Of a DNA stretch of 43,644 nucleotides, positions 2,319 through 29,389 are shown in pieces. The notes under the pieces were generated by a model, which made no database searches, was not told where the DNA came from, and saw nothing but the letters and a program-made list of their open reading frames with translations. The stretch comes from Paracoccaceae bacterium. GTDB lineage: Bacteria; Pseudomonadota; Alphaproteobacteria; Rhodobacterales; Rhodobacteraceae. The position numbers were made by a program, and so were the translations under genes. Where the stretch lies: the NCBI GenBank assembly GCA_020441385.1, contig JAGRMG010000057.1, positions 1 to 43,644 of the forward strand. The letters are read 5' to 3'. Position 1 is the stretch's first letter; every line of letters starts with the position of its first letter.

Positions 2319-3851
2319 TCAGGGCGGCGCGGCGGCGTTCGTGCGCCGCAGGATTTCGCCGACCGTCGCCGATACCGGACCCGACGAATCGATCCGGGCC
2401 CAGGCGATGCGGCCCGGATCGCGTGCGAGCTGGCGCTCGAGCACCTCGACCGTGGCGTCGGACGGGCCGCCGCGCCGGTCGCGCACGCGCGCGCGCAGCG
2501 CCGCAGGCCCGGCCTCCAGCCAGATGCAGGTGGGCGCCACGTTCGTGCCGGCCAGCGCCGCGGCGATCGCGGTGCGTCTTTCTTCGCGGTCGAACACCGC
2601 ATCGGCGACGACGCTGGCGCCCGATTTCAGGACTGCGCGCGCGCGTTCGGTCATGGCGGCGTAGACCTTTCCGGAGATCTCGTCGCGATATGCACCGGGC
2701 GGCAGCCGGGTATCGCCGGACACGCCGAAGAGCGCCTTGCGGGTGCGGTCGCTTTCGACGATCCGGGCGCCCGGCGGGGCGCCGACATGGGCCGCCAGCG
2801 CCTCGGCCACCGTGGTCTTGCCGGTGCCGCTGCGCCCGCCGATGACGATGGCGCGGACCGGCGCCGGCCTCAGCAGGGCGCGGGCGAGATCGAAGTAGCG
2901 CCGGGCATCGGCGGCATGATCGGCCGCCTTCGGGCCGCCGCGTTCGGCCTGGGTCGCGATCACGTGGGCGCGGACCTCGGCCCTGAGCGCCATCAGGAAG
3001 GGCAGCAGCGCAAAGCCGTCATCCTCGCCCATGGCGTCGAACCAGCGGTTGGCGGTCAGGGCGGCCAGATCGTGCAGGCCGCGGGCCCACAGGTCCATCA
3101 GCAGGAAGGCGAGATCGTAGAGCACGTCGACATTTGCCAGCCGGTCGCTGAATTCGATGCAGTCAAACAGCGTGGGCCGGCCCTGGAACATGCAGATGTT
3201 GCGCAGGTGCAGATCGCCGTGGCAGCGCCGCACCCAGCCCTGCGCCTCGCGCGCATCCAGCGTGGCGGCGTGCCGCTCAAGCGTGTCGCGAAACGCGCTG
3301 TCGAGCGCGTCGGCCTCGGGCGGCGCGAACACGGTGCTGGTGGCCAGGCCGGCGCGGTTGATGTCGAGCACCTCCGCAATGTTGGCCGCGCCGCCGCCCT
3401 GGTGCACGACCGGCGCGCCGGCATGGAACCCGGCGATTGTTGCCGCCAGCCCTTCCATCAGGCCGGGGGTCAGCCTGCCCTCGCGCGCCATGTCGCTGAA
3501 CAGCGCGTCCGCGCCGAACCGGGCCATTTCCACCACCGCATCGACCAGCGCGCCGGGGCCGTCGAATTCCAGCCCGCCGCCGCGCGCGCGGGTGATCCGG
3601 CGCACGCGCAGGTAGAGTGCGGGCGCCTGCGGGGCATTCAGCTCCAGTTCCCTCTCGCAGGTGGCCAGGCGCGCCTTCAGGGTCGAGAAATCGGCATAGG
3701 GCAGACGGATCGCGCGTTTCAGCTTGAAGGCGCGCTCGCCCGCCAGGAAGACGGTCGAGATATGGGTTTCGATCACCTCGACCGGCGCGCCGCCATGGGT
3801 TTCGGGGTTGGCGAGGAATGCGCGCACGCGCGCCTGGTCGTTGCCGCTCAT
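2319..3851 (-). CDS. Bifunctional aminoglycoside-phosphotransferase-like / P-loop kinase fusion protein
   Basis: 510-aa two-domain protein. Residues ~1-325 resemble the APH/choline-kinase fold: an AFKLKR nucleotide-binding Lys near 42-46, the catalytic loop CHGDLHLRN (HGD at 211-213) and the metal-binding Asp of LFDCIEF (Asp230). Residues ~330-510 are a separate P-loop kinase domain of the AAA_33/zeta-toxin-like type with Walker A GGRSGTGKTT (338-347). Proteins with this architecture are commonly annotated as 'bifunctional aminoglycoside phosphotransferase/ATP-binding protein'; I know of no established substrate, and the APH half does not by itself imply drug resistance. The gene is convergent with the carboxypeptidase and lies 30 bases downstream of ccoS on the same strand, so it might be read through from the cco operon. 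Start ATG is at 3849-3851; no strong Shine-Dalgarno is obvious. Confidence 0.8.
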   Translation of the reverse strand: MSGNDQARVRAFLANPETHGGAPVEVIETHISTVFLAGERAFKLKRAIRLPYADFSTLKARLATCERELELNAPQAPALYLRVRRITRARGGGLEFDGPGALVDAVVEMARFGADALFSDMAREGRLTPGLMEGLAATIAGFHAGAPVVHQGGGAANIAEVLDINRAGLATSTVFAPPEADALDSAFRDTLERHAATLDAREAQGWVRRCHGDLHLRNICMFQGRPTLFDCIEFSDRLANVDVLYDLAFLLMDLWARGLHDLAALTANRWFDAMGEDDGFALLPFLMALRAEVRAHVIATQAERGGPKAADHAADARRYFDLARALLRPAPVRAIVIGGRSGTGKTTVAEALAAHVGAPPGARIVESDRTRKALFGVSGDTRLPPGAYRDEISGKVYAAMTERARAVLKSGASVVADAVFDREERRTAIAAALAGTNVAPTCIWLEAGPAALRARVRDRRGGPSDATVEVLERQLARDPGRIAWARIDSSGPVSATVGEILRRTNAAAPP

Positions 3852-4044: not shown

Positions 4045-6225
4045 TCACCTCAGGCGCAAAGCGTTCAGCGATACCGTGATCGAGGATATGGACATCGCCA
4101 GCGCGGCAATCAAGGGGGTCGCCAGCCCGGCCACCGCCAGCGGCACCGCGATCACGTTGTAGAGCGTGGCGATGCGGAAGTTCTCGCGGATGCGCGAGGT
4201 GGCCTTCGTCGCGGTGTCGCAGGCCTGCGCGATGGGCGACAGATCCCGGCCCAGCAGCACGATGTCGGACGCCACGCGCGCGGCATCCAGCGCCGATGCG
4301 GGCGAGATCGACACATGCGCCGCCGCAAGCGCCGCGGTATCGTTCAGACCGTCGCCCACCATCAGCACGCGCCGGCCGCGCGCCGACAGATCGGCGATGC
4401 GCGCCGCCTTGTCCTGGGGCAGCGCCTCGGCCAGCCATTTGCCGATGCCGAGCCGTTCGGCCAGCGCCCCCACCGCGCCCGCGCCGTCGCCCGAGATCAG
4501 CAGCACCTCCTTGCCGGCGGCCTGCAATTCGCGCACCGCCCGTTCCGCGCCGGGGCGCAGGCCATCGCAAAAGAGCAGGGCCTGCGGCGCGCGCTGCCCG
4601 ATCTGCAGCCAAGCGGCGGTCTGCGCCCCCTGCGCCGCGCCGACCCAGGCGGCGCGGCCCAGGCGCACCCTCTGGCCGCGCAGCATGCCTTGCGTGCCGT
4701 ATCCCGGCGCTTCGGCGATGTCGGTCACGTCGGCGGGCCGGATGCCGGCGGCGCGGGCGGATCTGGCGAGCGCGACCGACAGCGGGTGCGCAGACGCCTG
4801 CGCCAGCGCCAGCGCGACCCCGAGATCGGCGCGCGTGAGATCGCCCAGGTTGGTGCATTCCGGGATACCCGATGTCAGCGTGCCGGTCTTGTCGAACACC
4901 ACCGTATCGACCTGGGCCAGCCGCTCGAGCGCGGTGGCGTCCTTGATCAGCAGCCCCTTGCGGAACAGCCGCCCCGAGGCGGCGGTGGTCACGGCCGGAA
5001 CCGCGAGGCCCAGCGCGCAGGGGCAGGTGATGATCAGCACGGCGGCGGCGATGTTCAGCGCGGTGCGCATGTCGCCGGAATAGAGCAGCCATCCCAGAAA
5101 GCTGAGCGCCGAGAGGATATGCACGCCCGGCGCGTAAAGCCGCGCGGCGCTGTCGGCCAGCGACGTATAGCGCGACCGCCCGCTTTCGGCGATCGCCACC
5201 AGATCGGCCATGCGGTGCAGCGAGGTATCCTGCCCCACCGCCGTCGCGCGGACGGTGAGCGGGCCGGTCAGGTTGACCTCGCCGGCACTGACCGCGCGGC
5301 CCGGCTCGGCAAAGACCGGGAGCGTTTCGCCGGTCAGCAGCGAGCGGTCGAGTTCCGAGCGCCCGGAGACGATTTCGCCATCGACCGGCATCCGCCCGCC
5401 CGGCCGGACCAGAACCAGATCGCCCACGGCAAGTTCGGCGACGGCGATCTCTTCTTCGCCCCCGTCGCTCAGGCGCAGGGCGCGGGGCACTTCCAGCGCG
5501 GCCAGTTCCTGCGCCGCCGACCGGGCCATGGCGCGGGTGCGATGATCGAGATAGCGCCCGGCAAGCAGGAAGAAGGTCAGCGCCAGAGCCGCGTCGAAAT
5601 AGGCGTGTTCGCCCGACAGCGAGGTTTCCCAGAGCGACGTTGCCAGCGCCAGCACGATGGCCAGCACGATCGGCACATCCATGTTCAGCCGGCGCGCCGA
5701 CAGGGCGCCCCAGGCGCTGCGAAAGAACGGTTGCGCCGAAAACGCGATGGCGGGCAGGGCGATGGCGGCGGAAATCCAGTGGAACAGGTCGCGGGTGGCA
5801 TCGCCCGCCCCCGACCAGACCGAAACCGACAGCAGCATCACGTTCATCGAGGCAAAGCCCGCGACCGCCAGGCGCATCAGCAGATCGCGCCCGGCGCGGT
5901 CGTTCTCGGTTGCCGAAAGGGTACCCGGGTCCAGTTCGTGCGCCTCGTAGCCGATGCCTTCGAGCACCGCGATCAGGTCGGCGGCGCGCAGGTCGGGCGC
6001 GGCCTCGATCATCGCGCGCTTGAGCGTCAGGTTGACCCGGGCGCCGATGACGCCGGGCTGGGCGTTCAGGGCACCTTCCACGGCGCTGATGCAGCTCTGG
6101 CAGTGGATCGAGGGCAGCGACAGCGCGATGCGCGCATCCCGGACCGTCTGCCGAACCGCCTCCTGCGGCGTTGCCAGGCAGCCCGGGCAGGCCGCGCCAG
6201 AGGGTGGCCGAAGCTGGGCCGTCAC
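4045..6225 (-). CDS. ccoI: Copper-translocating P1B-type ATPase CcoI/FixI
   Basis: 726-aa heavy-metal P-type ATPase that, in the CcoI group, delivers copper for the CuB centre of cbb3 oxidase. Visible features in order: an N-terminal Cys pair (ACPGC, 13-16), one HMA domain with CQSC (42-45), eight expected membrane helices, the TGE actuator loop (298-300), the intramembrane ion motif CPC (401-403), the phosphorylation motif DKTGTLT (Asp445), the SAHPLS nucleotide-binding His-Pro pair, and the hinge GDGLNDTAAL. It starts with GTG (6223-6225) 9 bases after the ccoH stop and is followed after 4 bases by ccoS. Context separates it from the CopA copper-export group, as does the position after ccoH. 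Confidence 0.95.
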   Translation of the reverse strand: MTAQLRPPSGAACPGCLATPQEAVRQTVRDARIALSLPSIHCQSCISAVEGALNAQPGVIGARVNLTLKRAMIEAAPDLRAADLIAVLEGIGYEAHELDPGTLSATENDRAGRDLLMRLAVAGFASMNVMLLSVSVWSGAGDATRDLFHWISAAIALPAIAFSAQPFFRSAWGALSARRLNMDVPIVLAIVLALATSLWETSLSGEHAYFDAALALTFFLLAGRYLDHRTRAMARSAAQELAALEVPRALRLSDGGEEEIAVAELAVGDLVLVRPGGRMPVDGEIVSGRSELDRSLLTGETLPVFAEPGRAVSAGEVNLTGPLTVRATAVGQDTSLHRMADLVAIAESGRSRYTSLADSAARLYAPGVHILSALSFLGWLLYSGDMRTALNIAAAVLIITCPCALGLAVPAVTTAASGRLFRKGLLIKDATALERLAQVDTVVFDKTGTLTSGIPECTNLGDLTRADLGVALALAQASAHPLSVALARSARAAGIRPADVTDIAEAPGYGTQGMLRGQRVRLGRAAWVGAAQGAQTAAWLQIGQRAPQALLFCDGLRPGAERAVRELQAAGKEVLLISGDGAGAVGALAERLGIGKWLAEALPQDKAARIADLSARGRRVLMVGDGLNDTAALAAAHVSISPASALDAARVASDIVLLGRDLSPIAQACDTATKATSRIRENFRIATLYNVIAVPLAVAGLATPLIAALAMSISSITVSLNALRLR

Positions 6226-17591: not shown

Positions 17592-18665
17592 ATGGACGAT
17601 CTGAAAGGGAAATATCTGGGGCAGATCGCCGATGCGGCGGACGAGACCGCGCTTGAATCGATCCGCCTCGCCGCCATCGGCAAGAAGGGCGAGATCAGCC
17701 TGAAGATGCGCGAACTTGGCCGCATGACCCCCGAGGAACGCCAGGTTGCCGGCCCGGCGCTGAACGCCCTCAAGGACGAGATCAATTCCGCCCTGGCGGC
17801 AAAGAAGGCGGCGCTGGGCGATGCCGCGCTCGACGAACGGCTGCGCGGCGAATGGCTGGACGTGACGCTGCCCTCGCGGCCGCGGCGGGCCGGCACGCTG
17901 CATCCCGTGAGCCAGGCCGGCGAGGAACTGACCGCGATCTTCGCCGATATGGGCTTTTCCGTGGCCGAGGGCCCGCGCATCGAGACCGACTGGTACAATT
18001 TCGACGCGCTCAACATCCCCGGTCACCATCCGGCGCGGGCCGAGATGGACACGTTCTACATGCACCGCGCCGCGGGCGACAACCGCCCGCCCAACGTGCT
18101 GCGCACCCATACCAGCCCGGTGCAGATCAGGGCGATGGAGGCGCAGGGCGCGCCGATCCGCATCATCTGCCCGGGCGGCGTCTACCGCGCCGATTACGAC
18201 CAGACCCACACGCCGATGTTCCACCAGGTCGAGGGGCTGGCGCTGGATACCGACATATCCATGGCCAACCTGAAATGGGTGCTGGAAGAGTTCTGCCGCG
18301 CCTTCTTCGAGATCGACGATGTCGAACTGCGCTTCCGCGCCAGCCATTTCCCGTTCACCGAACCCTCGGCCGAGGTCGATATCCGCTGCTCCTGGGCGGG
18401 CGGCGCGCTGAGGATCGGCGAGGGCGACGACTGGATGGAAATTCTCGGCTCGGGCATGGTGCACCCATCGGTCATCGCCGCCGGCGGCATCGACCCCGAG
18501 GTCTACCAGGGCTTTGCCTTCGGCATCGGCATCGACCGGCTGGCGATGCTGAAATACGGCATCCCCGACCTGCGGGCGTTCTTCGATTCCGACCTGCGCT
18601 GGCTGCGCCACTACGGCTTTGCCTCGCTCGACGTGCCGACGCTCAGGGGGGGGCTGTCGCGCTAG
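17592..18665 (+). CDS. pheS: Phenylalanine-tRNA ligase alpha subunit
   Basis: 357-aa catalytic subunit of the class II (alpha-beta)2 phenylalanyl-tRNA synthetase. It has the N-terminal coiled-coil tRNA-binding arm (residues ~10-85), then motif 2 around [13 protein letters not shown], the [17 protein letters not shown] segment and motif 3 [22 protein letters not shown] near the C-terminus. Length is normal. The ATG at 17592 follows a GGGGGG-rich stretch. In most bacteria pheT follows directly; here about 1.8 kb of other genes separates pheS from pheT. Confidence 0.96.
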
Positions 18666-18689: not shown

Positions 18690-18968
18690 ATGCTGTTTTC
18701 GCACGATCACCGCCATGCCGGCCCGAGGTCGCAGCGCATCTACGCGCTGTTCGAGATCGTCTATACGCTGGTCGATTTCGGCGCCGCCTTTCTGTTTCTC
18801 GTCGGGTCGGTCATGTTCCTGTACGACGACTGGACGCATTTCGGCACCTGGCTGTTCATCATCGGATCGGTTCTGTTCTGCGCCAAGCCGACCATCCGCC
18901 TGCTGCGGGAACTGAAACTCGCCGCCATCGGCGATACCGAGGATCTGGCCAGGCGGCTGGGGCGGTGA
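18690..18968 (+). CDS. YrhK-family membrane protein
   Basis: 92-aa protein starting 24 bases after the pheS stop. Two membrane helices are visible (about residues 24-45, LVDFGAAFLFLVGSVMF, and 52-66, WLFIIGSVLFCAKPTIRLL), the shape and core of the YrhK domain. Function of the family is unknown. Spacing suggests cotranscription with pheS. The region after it carries the hairpin cluster at 19017-19097. Confidence 0.75.
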   Translation: MLFSHDHRHAGPRSQRIYALFEIVYTLVDFGAAFLFLVGSVMFLYDDWTHFGTWLFIIGSVLFCAKPTIRLLRELKLAAIGDTEDLARRLGR

Positions 18969-19016
18969 GGGAGATTGACTTGACCATTTCCCAATCGGCA
19001 GGTCGAAGGACAGAGG

Positions 19017-19097
19017 TTCGCGCCCGGCCCGAGGGTGGGCGCATTTCGCGCCCGCCCTGGGGGGCGGGTCGGGCGCGAACCGGGGCTGGCGCCCCGG
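19017..19097. repeat. Hairpin cluster with TTCGCGCCCG repeats, first locus
   Basis: The decamer TTCGCGCCCG is at 19017-19026 and 19045-19054, and its complement CGGGCGCGAA at 19070-19079, so 19045-19079 folds into a perfect 10-bp stem. A second stem, CCGGGG (19080-19085) with CCCCGG (19092-19097), follows directly. The same 10-bp arms reappear at 29390-29424 and 29506-29515. It could terminate the pheS-yrhK transcript. Confidence 0.7.
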
Positions 19098-19166
19098 AGG
19101 GACGGTGGGATGGAACGGCACCAGACTTGGATAATCCTGAGCGGCGGCTTGAGCAAGTGAAGCTAG

Positions 19167-19652
19167 TTGCATGGGAAACTCACCTGGTCTGACTGGAATT
19201 GGATTTGGCTGTTGTTGACTGAAGCCTTCGAATTACTTGACGGCCTGGGACCGGTTTTGGCTTTGGCTGGCGCTGTCTGGTTGTTTTTCCTACAGCGCCG
19301 TTCGGACAGAGCCATGGAAGAGCGGTTGGAACGCCGCAAGGTCTTTTTGAACTTTCTTGGTACGAACGCTGCGTTGTCCATGTCTGTCAATTCTGAAGAA
19401 AGCGTATTCCGCGACTCATTCGCGCGTGCGTCGGCAGCGGCAGATCAAGTACATCTCGTCGCAACGAGCAGCGAACTTTTGGCTGAGGTTGACCGGTTTC
19501 GAGAAATCGCCACGAAACTGCGTCACCATCACGAATCCAAAGAAGATGCGAAATTCAAGAATGATCAAGACCAGTGGCATAAATGCCATGAGTCCGTGCG
19601 GAAAAGAATGAGGGCGGAGTTGTTGGACAAGACGATAGGCAAAAGAACATGA
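19167..19652 (+). CDS. Hypothetical single-pass membrane protein (161 aa), lower GC
   Basis: The frame opens directly after an in-frame TAG (19164-19166), so the TTG at 19167 is the first possible start; the product begins MHGKLTWSDWNWIW. One long hydrophobic segment (residues ~12-43, including LGPVLALAGAVWLFFLQ) is followed by a charged cytoplasmic region (RRSDRAMEERLERRK) and a mixed helical tail with a HHH-E-K-rich stretch. I do not recognise it. Base composition is unlike its neighbours: two 60-base lines counted by hand (19321-19380 and 19561-19620) give 52% and 50% GC, while neighbouring genes look well above 60%. This suggests transfer. Its TGA stop overlaps the ATG of the pheT-start duplicate (19649-19662). 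Confidence 0.65.
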   Translation: MHGKLTWSDWNWIWLLLTEAFELLDGLGPVLALAGAVWLFFLQRRSDRAMEERLERRKVFLNFLGTNAALSMSVNSEESVFRDSFARASAAADQVHLVATSSELLAEVDRFREIATKLRHHHESKEDAKFKNDQDQWHKCHESVRKRMRAELLDKTIGKRT

Positions 19653-19662
19653 AATTCACCCT
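19649..19662 (+). repeat. Duplicate of the pheT start (left direct repeat)
   Basis: ATGAAATTCACCCT here is identical to the first 14 bases of pheT at 20457-20470, 808 bp downstream. The frame reads M-K-F-T-L as in PheT, then diverges and stops within 12 codons. The two copies exactly flank the MntA/HepT module, as a target-site or recombination duplication would. Confidence 0.75.
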
Positions 19663-19755
19663 TCCCCCCTATGAAGGGCCATAGCGATACCGCCACCGTC
19701 TTTCCAAACGCCGTCGCCGCTTGATTTCCCCCCGCGTCTGTCCGACATTCCGGTC

Positions 19756-20049
19756 ATGGACAAGGCCGCCGTCATATCCGCCATCCGCGCCCTGCGCCCG
19801 GCCTTCGAGGCCGAGGGCGTAAGCCATGTGTACCTGTTCGGATCGGTCGCCCGGGACGAGCAAGGCCCGGCTTCGGATGTCGATCTGTTCTTCGACCACA
19901 AGCTGACCAAATTCGGCCTGATCGAATATTCCGGCCTCAAGCGCTTTGCCCGCGAGCATCTGCCCTTCGACGCCGATTTCATCGAGCGCAGTTGCCTGCA
20001 TCCCGCCATCCGTCCCGAGGCCGAAGCTCAGGCGATCCGGGTATTCTGA
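19756..20049 (+). CDS. MntA-like nucleotidyltransferase (antitoxin)
   Basis: 97-aa minimal nucleotidyltransferase. The family signature is intact: LFGSVARDE (Gly29-Ser30) followed by SDVDLFF with Asp41 and Asp43, and a third acidic strand FDADF (Asp74). In characterised MntA/HepT pairs the MntA enzyme AMPylates the HepT toxin on the Tyr of its HEPN motif and so neutralises it. The stop overlaps the hepT start (TGATG at 20047-20051), giving translational coupling. It lies inside the segment bracketed by the pheT-start repeats. Confidence 0.85.
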   Translation: MDKAAVISAIRALRPAFEAEGVSHVYLFGSVARDEQGPASDVDLFFDHKLTKFGLIEYSGLKRFAREHLPFDADFIERSCLHPAIRPEAEAQAIRVF

Positions 20050-20399
20050 TGCCCGGTCGCGACCGCAACCTGCTGCGCATCGACGACATGCTCGCGGCCA
20101 TCGACGTGGTTGAAACCGTTCTTCGCGAAACCGGCGGTGCGGTGCGGCAGTCCGACCGGGTGCGGGTTTTCGCCATCGAACGGGCGTTCGAGATCGTGTC
20201 GGAGGCGTCGCGGCGGCTGGATGACGACCTCAGGGCAAGCGAACCCGGCATACCGTGGAGTGACATCGCGGGGATCGGCAACATACTCCGTCACGATTAC
20301 GACGACGTGAATTTCGCGCTGCTGATGGGAACCGCCACCGACGATCTGCCGCTATTGCGTTCGGCGCTGTTGCGAATGCGCAAGTGCTGCGAAGACTGA
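20049..20399 (+). CDS. HepT-like (DUF86/HEPN) toxin with atypical active site
   Basis: 116-aa all-helical protein of the DUF86/HepT family, normally a HEPN ribonuclease toxin paired with MntA. The start ATG (20049) overlaps the mntA stop. The family's C-terminal motif is recognisable as IGNILRHDYDDV (76-87), but the canonical arginine of R-x4-H-x-Y is Gly77 here; His82 and the AMPylation-target Tyr84 remain, and an Arg (81) sits directly before the His. So it may be an RNase-dead or divergent-mechanism form. The other helices (IDDMLAAIDVVETVL, FAIERAFEIVSEASRRL) are typical. Confidence 0.8.
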   Translation: MPGRDRNLLRIDDMLAAIDVVETVLRETGGAVRQSDRVRVFAIERAFEIVSEASRRLDDDLRASEPGIPWSDIAGIGNILRHDYDDVNFALLMGTATDDLPLLRSALLRMRKCCED

Positions 20400-20456
20400 G
20401 ACTTTCCATTCGCGACCGCCTGCGCTACTGACGCCGCGAACAAGGGATGCCGCGCA

Positions 20457-20470
20457 ATGAAATTCACCCT
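20457..20470 (+). repeat. Right direct repeat (native pheT start)
   Basis: First 14 bases of pheT, ATGAAATTCACCCT, matching 19649-19662. Confidence 0.75.
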
Positions 20471-22853
20471 CTCCTGGCTGAAGGACCACCTCGACACCAC
20501 GGCGACCGTGGACGAGATCGCCGAGGCGCTGACCGATCTCGGGCTCGAGGTCGAGGCCGTCACCAACCCCGCCGACCGGCTGCGCGCGTTCACGCTGGCG
20601 CGCGTCAAGTCCGCCGAGCAGCACCCCGACGCCGACCGGCTGCGGGTCTGCATCGTCGAGACCGACGAAGGCGAGCGTCAGATCGTCTGCGGCGCGCCCA
20701 ACGCGCGCGAAGGCATCATCGTGGTGCTGGCCAAGCCCGGCGATTATGTGCCGGGCATCGACACCACGCTTTCGGTGGGCAGGATCCGGGGCGTCGAGAG
20801 CCACGGCATGATGGCCTCCGAACGCGAACTGGAACTTTCGGATGAACATGACGGCATCATCGAACTGCCCTCGGGCGAGGTCGGTGAACGGTTCGTCGAC
20901 TGGCTGGCCGACAATTTTCCCGAAAAGGTCGATCCGGTGATCGAGATCGCGATCACCCCGAACCGGCCCGACGCGCTGGGCGTGCGCGGCATCGCGCGCG
21001 ACCTGGCGGCGCGCGGGCTGGGCACGCTCAGGCCGCGCGACCACGACCCGGTGCCGGGCGATTTTCCCTGCCCGATCCCGGTTGCGATCGACGAGGATAC
21101 CGCCGACGGCTGCCCGGTCTTCGCCGGCCGGGTGATCCGGGGTGTCAGGAACGGCCCCAGCCCGCAATGGTTGCAGGACCAGTTGCGCGCCATCGGGCTG
21201 CGGCCGATCTCGGCGCTGGTCGATATCACCAATTTCATGACCTACGATCGCAATCGCCCGCTGCATGTGTTCGATGCCGACAAGGTGGCCGGCGGCCTGC
21301 GCGTGCATCGCGCCCGGGGCGGCGAGACCATCATGGCGCTGGATGACAGGGAATACACCTTCGCGCCCGGCATGATCGTCATTTCCGACGACAACGGCCC
21401 CGAAAGCATCGCCGGCATCATGGGCGGCGCGGCGACCGGCGTGAGCGATCAGACCGAGAACGTCTTTGTCGAGAGCGCCTATTGGGATCACGTCCAGATC
21501 GCGCTGGCGGGCCGGGCGCTCAAGGTCAGCTCCGACGCCCGCTACCGCTTTGAACGCGGCGTCGATCCCGAGTACACCATCGCCGGGCTGGAACACGCCA
21601 CCCGCATGATCGTGGACCTGTGCGGCGGCGAGGTGTCCGAACTGGTGATCGCGGGCGATGTGCCGAACCATTCACGCTCGTACCGGCTGAACCCCGCGCG
21701 GGTGCAAAGCCTGGTGGGCATGGACATCCCCGAAAGCGAACAGCGCCAGACCCTGACCCGGCTGGGCTTTCGCCTCGAAGGCAGCCAGGCGCATGTGCCG
21801 AGCTGGCGGCCCGATATCCAGGGCGAGGCCGATCTGGTCGAGGAAGTGGCGCGGATCGCGTCGCTGACCCGGTTGCAGGGCAGACCGCTCAAACGGCTGA
21901 GCCCGGGCATTCCCAAACCGGTGATGACCCCGCACCAGCGCCGCCTTCAGGCCGCGCGGCGCACCGCCGCGGCGCTGGGCTACAACGAATGCGTCAGCTA
22001 TTCCTTCATCGACCGCGAGGCGGCGGCGCTGTTCGGCGGCGGCGGCGATGCCACCATGCTGGAAAACCCGATCTCGTCGGAGATGACGCATATGCGCCCG
22101 TCGCTGCTGCCGGGGCTGTTGCGCGCGGCGGCGCGCAACCAGGCGCGCGGCTTCATGGATCTGGCGCTGTTCGAGGCCGGGCCGGCCTTTCATGGCGGCG
22201 AGCCGGGCGAACAGCACACGCTGGTCAGCGGCCTGCTGGTCGGGCGCATCGCACCCAAAGACGTGCACGGCACCGCGCGCGCCGTCGATGTGTTCGACGC
22301 CAAGGCCGATGCCGAGGCGGTCCTGGCGGCCATCGGCGCGCCCGCCAGGGCGCAGATCCGGCGCGGCGCGCCGGACTGGTGGCACCCGGGCCGGCACGGC
22401 ATGATCTGCCTGGGCCCGAAGAAGGTGCTGGCCGTGTTCGGAGAGCTGCACCCCCGGGTGCTGAAGGCGATGGACGTGAAAGGCCCGGCCATGGGCTTTG
22501 TCGTCTGGCCCGACGAGGTGCCGCTTGCCCGCCGGACCGGCGCGGGACGCAGCGCGCTCGAGTTGCGCGACCTTCAGGCGGTGGAACGCGATTTCGCCTT
22601 TGTCGTCGATGCCGATGTCGAGGCGCTGACGCTCGTCAACGCCGCCGCCGGGGCCGACAAGGCGCTGATCGAGGATGTGCGCGTGTTCGACGAATTCATC
22701 GGCGGATCGCTGGGTGCGGGCAAGAAGTCGCTGGCGGTGACGGTGCGCTTGCAGCCCCTGGACAAGACGCTCACCGAGAAGGAGATCGAGGCGGTTTCGG
22801 CGCGAATCGTGCAGAAGGTCGGCAAGGCCACCGGCGGCGTGCTGCGCGGCTGA
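20457..22853 (+). CDS. pheT: Phenylalanine-tRNA ligase beta subunit
   Basis: 798-aa beta subunit. Domains in order: the N-terminal MKFTLSWLKDHL segment, the EMAP/OB-type tRNA-binding domain (~40-150, with HPDADRLRVC and IVCGAPNAR), B3/4 editing domain, B5 domain (~400-475), the catalytic-like core with RPSLLPGLLRAAARNQ, and the C-terminal ferredoxin-fold anticodon-binding domain ending KEIEAVSARIVQKVG. Length is normal, so it is intact despite the accessory DNA in front. The start has a weak AAGGGATG upstream. Being separated from pheS it probably needs its own promoter or long read-through; I see no strong promoter in 20400-20456. Confidence 0.96.
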   Translation: MKFTLSWLKDHLDTTATVDEIAEALTDLGLEVEAVTNPADRLRAFTLARVKSAEQHPDADRLRVCIVETDEGERQIVCGAPNAREGIIVVLAKPGDYVPGIDTTLSVGRIRGVESHGMMASERELELSDEHDGIIELPSGEVGERFVDWLADNFPEKVDPVIEIAITPNRPDALGVRGIARDLAARGLGTLRPRDHDPVPGDFPCPIPVAIDEDTADGCPVFAGRVIRGVRNGPSPQWLQDQLRAIGLRPISALVDITNFMTYDRNRPLHVFDADKVAGGLRVHRARGGETIMALDDREYTFAPGMIVISDDNGPESIAGIMGGAATGVSDQTENVFVESAYWDHVQIALAGRALKVSSDARYRFERGVDPEYTIAGLEHATRMIVDLCGGEVSELVIAGDVPNHSRSYRLNPARVQSLVGMDIPESEQRQTLTRLGFRLEGSQAHVPSWRPDIQGEADLVEEVARIASLTRLQGRPLKRLSPGIPKPVMTPHQRRLQAARRTAAALGYNECVSYSFIDREAAALFGGGGDATMLENPISSEMTHMRPSLLPGLLRAAARNQARGFMDLALFEAGPAFHGGEPGEQHTLVSGLLVGRIAPKDVHGTARAVDVFDAKADAEAVLAAIGAPARAQIRRGAPDWWHPGRHGMICLGPKKVLAVFGELHPRVLKAMDVKGPAMGFVVWPDEVPLARRTGAGRSALELRDLQAVERDFAFVVDADVEALTLVNAAAGADKALIEDVRVFDEFIGGSLGAGKKSLAVTVRLQPLDKTLTEKEIEAVSARIVQKVGKATGGVLRG

Positions 22854-29316: not shown

Positions 29317-29389
29317 GGGCCGAACCTACTCTTTTTCAATCTCAAGTCCGCTGCATCGGCCTGCTGGCCCCGGATCGCCCGCGATCCGG

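Follow-up and report, generated by a model that had tools for sequence, protein, structure and literature searches.

A duplicated pheT start in the variable pheS-pheT spacer of a Paracoccaceae bacterium, probably a scar of gene swapping

Genes and features between pheS and pheT

The window, that is the whole stretch of 43,644 nucleotides that was analysed, carries the genes for both subunits of PheRS, with several features between them. Along the window, the order is pheS, yrhK, a 121-bp palindromic repeat, orf161, the left copy of a 14-bp repeat, an mntA-like gene, a hepT-like gene, a leader, pheT and rlmN. All features for which a strand is implied below are on the forward strand. The left edge of the spacer is formed by pheS (17592–18665), encoding PheRS alpha (PF01409, 2e-96, and PF02912), and the right edge by pheT (20457–22853), encoding PheRS beta and identified by its Pfam domains and by full-length PheT matches in relatives. 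PheRS is an alpha2beta2 enzyme, and pheS and pheT are therefore expected to stay coupled. The GC content is 67–69% for these two genes, 63% for the mntA- and hepT-like genes, and 51% for orf161.

The first cargo gene (18690–18968) is yrhK-like (PF14145, 1e-21). It lies between pheS and orf161, was absent from the original prediction, and is a recurrent cargo of pheS-pheT spacers, with matches in roughly 25 of the surveyed relatives. It is followed by a GC-rich, REP-like palindromic repeat (18990–19110, arms at 19015–19031 and 19065–19081); eight more matching stretches are found on other contigs, and one in this contig at 29386–29427. Next is the low-GC gene orf161 (19167–19652, 161 amino acids), which has no Pfam match and no match on plasmids. 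AlphaFold predicts an all-helical protein (pLDDT 88), with a long, TM-type N-terminal helix followed by a helical bundle. An iterated profile search identified members of the orf161 family in 10 spacers. The family is divergent, with an N-terminal hydrophobic helix and a charged DRxxELRxERR stretch.

The mntA-like gene (19756–20049), encoding an antitoxin-type nucleotidyltransferase (PF01909, 6e-10), is preceded by a leader, CCGACATTC (19719–19755), and followed by the hepT-like gene (20049–20399), encoding a toxin-type HEPN protein (PF01934, 1e-16). As in class I HepT/MntA systems (PMC7641770), the MNT gene is directly upstream of the HEPN gene, and the MntA motif GSX10DXD is present (GSVARDEQGPASDVD, within 19756–20046). 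Unlike in those systems, the HepT RNase motif RX4HXY (PMC7641770) is not intact, with GNILRHDY, Gly for Arg, both here and in the homologue from genome G370, and both window proteins score below the NCBIfam equivalog cut-offs (25.7 bits for MntA and 18.4 bits for HepT, cut-off 60 for each). Both genes pass the Pfam thresholds, but because of these two differences the pair is best described, from its sequence, as HEPN/MNT-like rather than as a confirmed HepT/MntA system. As originally predicted, the 808-bp unit is a module of foreign type. The window gene at 20049–20399 and its G370 counterpart may define a HepT-like subfamily of putative toxins, with GNILRHDY in place of RNxxxHxY. For hepT, only distant relatives were found on plasmids, and no solved structure matched either protein by sequence. 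None of the defence-system models matched the cargo set, and the sole defence-type match of mntA is to the PADLOC candidate PDC-S09.

The G370 locus (L074), from another genus, consists of pheS, an mntA-like gene, a hepT-like gene, a promoter and pheT. The two encoded proteins are 49% (mntA-like) and 44% (hepT-like) identical to those of the window, the mntA leaders can be aligned, and in both loci the promoter begins right after the hepT stop. The G370 mntA (4311–4601) has an early in-frame TGA next to an open hepT homologue, which could reflect either a sequencing error or a pair lacking its antitoxin.

The first 14 bases of pheT, ATGAAATTCACCCT, occur twice. The right copy (20457–20470) is the true pheT start, and the left copy (19649–19662) lies 808 bp away. 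In agreement with the original prediction, the left copy keeps the reading M-K-F-T-L in a short frame, with a stop at codon 12, and the TGA of orf161 overlaps its ATG (ATGA). Allowing up to 2 mismatches reveals no third copy in the window, and the 3.7-Mb genome has no further exact copy.

A variable junction with two architectures

The survey covered 183 pheS-pheT loci, from 182 relatives and the window. The counts given below are approximate, as the use of two collections means that some species are represented twice (L123 and L232, for instance), and as roughly half of the loci from whole genomes were picked for carrying ATGAARTTYACNCT. Where pheS is in reach (n = 147), the pheS-pheT spacer ranges from −4 to 3425 bp, with a median of 816 bp. 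In the same loci the rpmI-rplT spacer, just upstream, is invariably 13–23 bp (n = 78). The interval between rplT and pheS is variable as well (118–2979 bp), so that pheS has variable regions on both sides.

The cargo includes ASCH, class-I glutamine amidotransferase, alpha/beta hydrolase, arginine deiminase/DDAH, BLUF, cupin, META and YrhK proteins, and many unnamed ones. The junction thus combines constant core-gene borders with diverse cargo, as do integrase-free hotspots of horizontal gene transfer. No integrase or transposase was identified among the window genes, nor among the cargo Pfam families listed (25 of 32). The cargo of one genome (G331) differs from that of its congener (G419) by about 950 bp, indicating turnover within one genus. 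As a separate observation, ASCH is the commonest named cargo, accounting for 15 of the 98 scanned proteins; it is found in the spacers of L045, L051, L075 and others, in several cases directly 5' of pheT.

In other alphaproteobacterial families, 14 of the 18 genomes with both genes in reach have a spacer of 9 nt or less, including eight with a 4-nt overlap, and one of the 18 has a spacer of 727 bp. Since elsewhere in Alphaproteobacteria the two genes mostly overlap or lie directly next to each other, the open, cargo-filled junction looks largely like a trait of Rhodobacteraceae, and not an ancestral one. I found no description of variable pheS-pheT cargo in Rhodobacteraceae in the open-access literature.

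Between hepT and pheT, I identified a conserved pheT promoter, gCTTtCCCC-N-cGCTA (20401–20430), that was not part of the original prediction. The motif was seeded by eye, and its exact form is consequently not independent of my reading; it was however trained, by expectation maximization (EM), without the window, whose score is a held-out test. With both strands of the window considered, the site at 20401–20430 scores highest, at 14.8 bits against 9.6 for the runner-up. In about two thirds of the relatives, the motif is found 33–60 nt upstream of pheT.

Classified by this promoter and by a cargo gene of 100 amino acids or more abutting pheT, 171 relatives fall into 107 with the promoter only, 36 with the abutting gene only, 7 with both and 21 with neither. 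The two features avoid each other (Fisher 2e-15), and 22 of the 36 promoterless abutting genes overlap pheT by a 4-nt ATGA. In the window, the right copy has the promoter and no abutting gene, while the left copy has a promoter score of −12.8 and the 161-residue ORF abutting it at −4. The window therefore carries both architectures in series, coupled at the left copy and autonomous at the right. A stretch near the left copy, CTTCCCC...GCGATACC, resembles the promoter by eye, but was rejected as a promoter relic because its score with the trained motif is negative.

Origin of the repeat

Several lines of evidence indicate that the left copy is probably a genuine relic of a pheT start. In 178 upstream regions from relatives (∼237 kb in total), exact matches to the first bases of the genome's own pheT reach at most 9 nt, in one region. 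This makes a 14-nt match by chance unlikely, as originally proposed, and leaves chance a small share of the probability. With a pheT-start profile trained without the window, the left copy ranks second in the window behind pheT itself (13.7 bits, next best 9.1), in an alignment spanning 19649–19696. The pheT similarity of the 40 bases past the 14-mer exceeds that of 1998 of 2000 shuffles, and of 2985 of 3000 random window positions. When the first 14 positions are removed from the profile, the left copy is not singled out. The first 14 nt of the probable relic are firm, and it likely extends to about 48 nt, with 19663–19696 as its probable decayed continuation, suggested by the profile alignment, the shuffles and a MAFFT alignment.

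The pheT-start profile was also used to look for other such relics in spacers, 239 kb in all. The top match is in L109 (uncultured Rhodobacteraceae isolate 2-1044), with 60 nt in frame, MKPLLSWLYNHPGTMAS, at 17.1 bits. Its first bases are the ATGA in which a cargo gene ends, 1095 bp upstream of pheT, and the gene nearest pheT in L109 is found standing alone in L169, as the last gene before leader and pheT. When the 906 spacer ATGA sites are ranked by a 56-nt score, L109 is first and L075/G331 second; both sites end cargo genes, as do 33 of the 906 (p about 0.001). If only the first 11 nt are scored, the window comes first by a wide margin. Sites that end genes are, taken together, not shifted towards pheT (Mann-Whitney 0.2–0.4), and relics would thus be rare exceptions. 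From its sequence, L109 is a good further candidate, and L075/G331 (MRFGVAWPKG) a weak one. In L109, MKPLLSWLYNHPGTMAS is also the PheT-like N-terminus of an orphan membrane-type ORF of 177 codons (2897–3427), whose gene start was possibly born from a pheT relic; no relatives of it were found in 375 genomes, in a search run without a positive control.

I consider it likely that the window represents an orf161-pheT spacer allele spliced upstream of an mntA-hepT-promoter-pheT allele, with the left copy of the repeat as the scar of the former pheT start. In coupled alleles, the last cargo gene abuts or overlaps pheT (ATGA), which lacks a promoter of its own, and in autonomous alleles the conserved promoter, about 45 nt upstream of pheT, follows the cargo. 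The left part of the window would then be a coupled allele, pheS-yrhK-orf161, joined by ATGA to a truncated pheT of which 14 exact bases, or about 48 decayed ones, are left. The right part, mntA-hepT-promoter-pheT, would be an autonomous allele joined downstream of it, so that pheT would now be transcribed from its own promoter, behind a toxin-antitoxin-like pair. This reading is based on relatives in which each half occurs by itself or in similar surroundings: for the right half G370, and for the left half L189, L191 and L196, where the stop codon TGA of an orf161-family gene lies within the start of the real pheT, whose first 14 nt are identical (ATGAAATTCACCCT). The incoming DNA may have recombined by homology in pheT (or in pheS/yrhK) at one end, with an illegitimate joint at the other, somewhere in 19663–19718, and homology-facilitated illegitimate recombination (HFIR) is a likely route. 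Three observations weigh against the splice: past its 14 bases the left copy is weakly pheT-like, orf161 is only 12–23% identical to its family members, and pheT, compared with its nearest relatives at 75–84% identity, shows even identity and no mosaic block.

The original prediction proposed instead that cargo had integrated at the pheT start and regenerated it, in a novel, site-specific style. The repeat is indeed direct and exact, and it brackets mntA-hepT, as would a target-site duplication made by a transposon or integrase. However, insertion between the copies would have left the ancestral pheT leader in front of the left copy, and the promoter instead adjoins the right one, with no good score near the left. 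The repeat is also non-recurrent, bordering cargo in none of the 178 other upstream regions, an outcome that the original prediction had itself named as refuting it and that speaks against a general style of integration. No mobility gene was found among the window genes or the cargo families listed. I therefore regard this mechanism as extremely improbable. The associated proposal that cargo entered repeatedly is borne out to the extent that accessory genes stand directly against the pheT start in 36 relatives, but not in its repeat-based regeneration, and the module does not appear locked in place, as the congener of one relative has lost its cargo or never had any.

Chance, with the end of orf161 and the mntA leader happening to spell a pheT start, would account for the weak similarity past 14 nt. 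CCCTTCCC is moreover similar to promoter sequence in G370, and the earlier reader could choose among many loci and kinds of repeat. Against this, besides the 9-nt maximum elsewhere, the match starts exactly at a cargo-ending ATGA, as do the junctions of orf161-family genes with the real pheT in three relatives, and coincidence appears improbable. A Campbell-type single crossover, or a tandem duplication including a short 5' part of pheT, with subsequent decay of the truncated copy, would likewise end with pheT truncated on the left and intact on the right. It requires a longer original duplication, almost all of which is gone, and the circular donor of a Campbell-type event has left no sign, with no mobility genes among the cargo families listed and orf161 absent from plasmids; I consider this very improbable. 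An assembly artefact was also considered, and is unlikely because assemblers usually work with words longer than 14 bp. The splice of two alleles is retained, and the repeat is most likely a scar left when genes were swapped, rather than the mark of a novel type of integration.

Implications and comparison with known systems

These observations indicate that Rhodobacteraceae have opened the pheS-pheT junction and filled it with changing accessory genes, with pheT toggling between translational coupling and a new promoter. More generally, the chances appear about even that whole spacers behave as alleles and are swapped when the synthetase genes on either side recombine, with pheT kept expressed by ATGA coupling or by a new promoter, and with failed exact replacements leaving pheT-start relics, as in the window and L109. 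The junction offers a natural experiment in how essential operons tolerate insertions, and the pheT-start relics a directly testable footprint of integrase-free cargo exchange.

Integrase-free hotspots between recombining core flanks are a general phenomenon (PMC5635113). As in these, the locus described here has a fixed core-gene pair, diverse and fast-changing cargo, and no recognised mobile element. It differs in that the site falls between the genes for the two subunits of a single essential enzyme, and in having two alternative ways of expressing pheT. A second parallel is found in the T6SS immunity-gene arrays of V. cholerae, for which HFIR has been proposed (PMC5361080, which cites de Vries and Wackernagel 2002 and Prudhomme 2002). 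In both cases a new module would have displaced an older one and settled next to what remains of it, with one end anchored by homology and the other illegitimate, as proposed for the arrays, and with intermediates present in relatives. In the arrays the remnant is a whole immunity gene, whereas here it would be a gene start, and the anchors would be essential synthetase genes.
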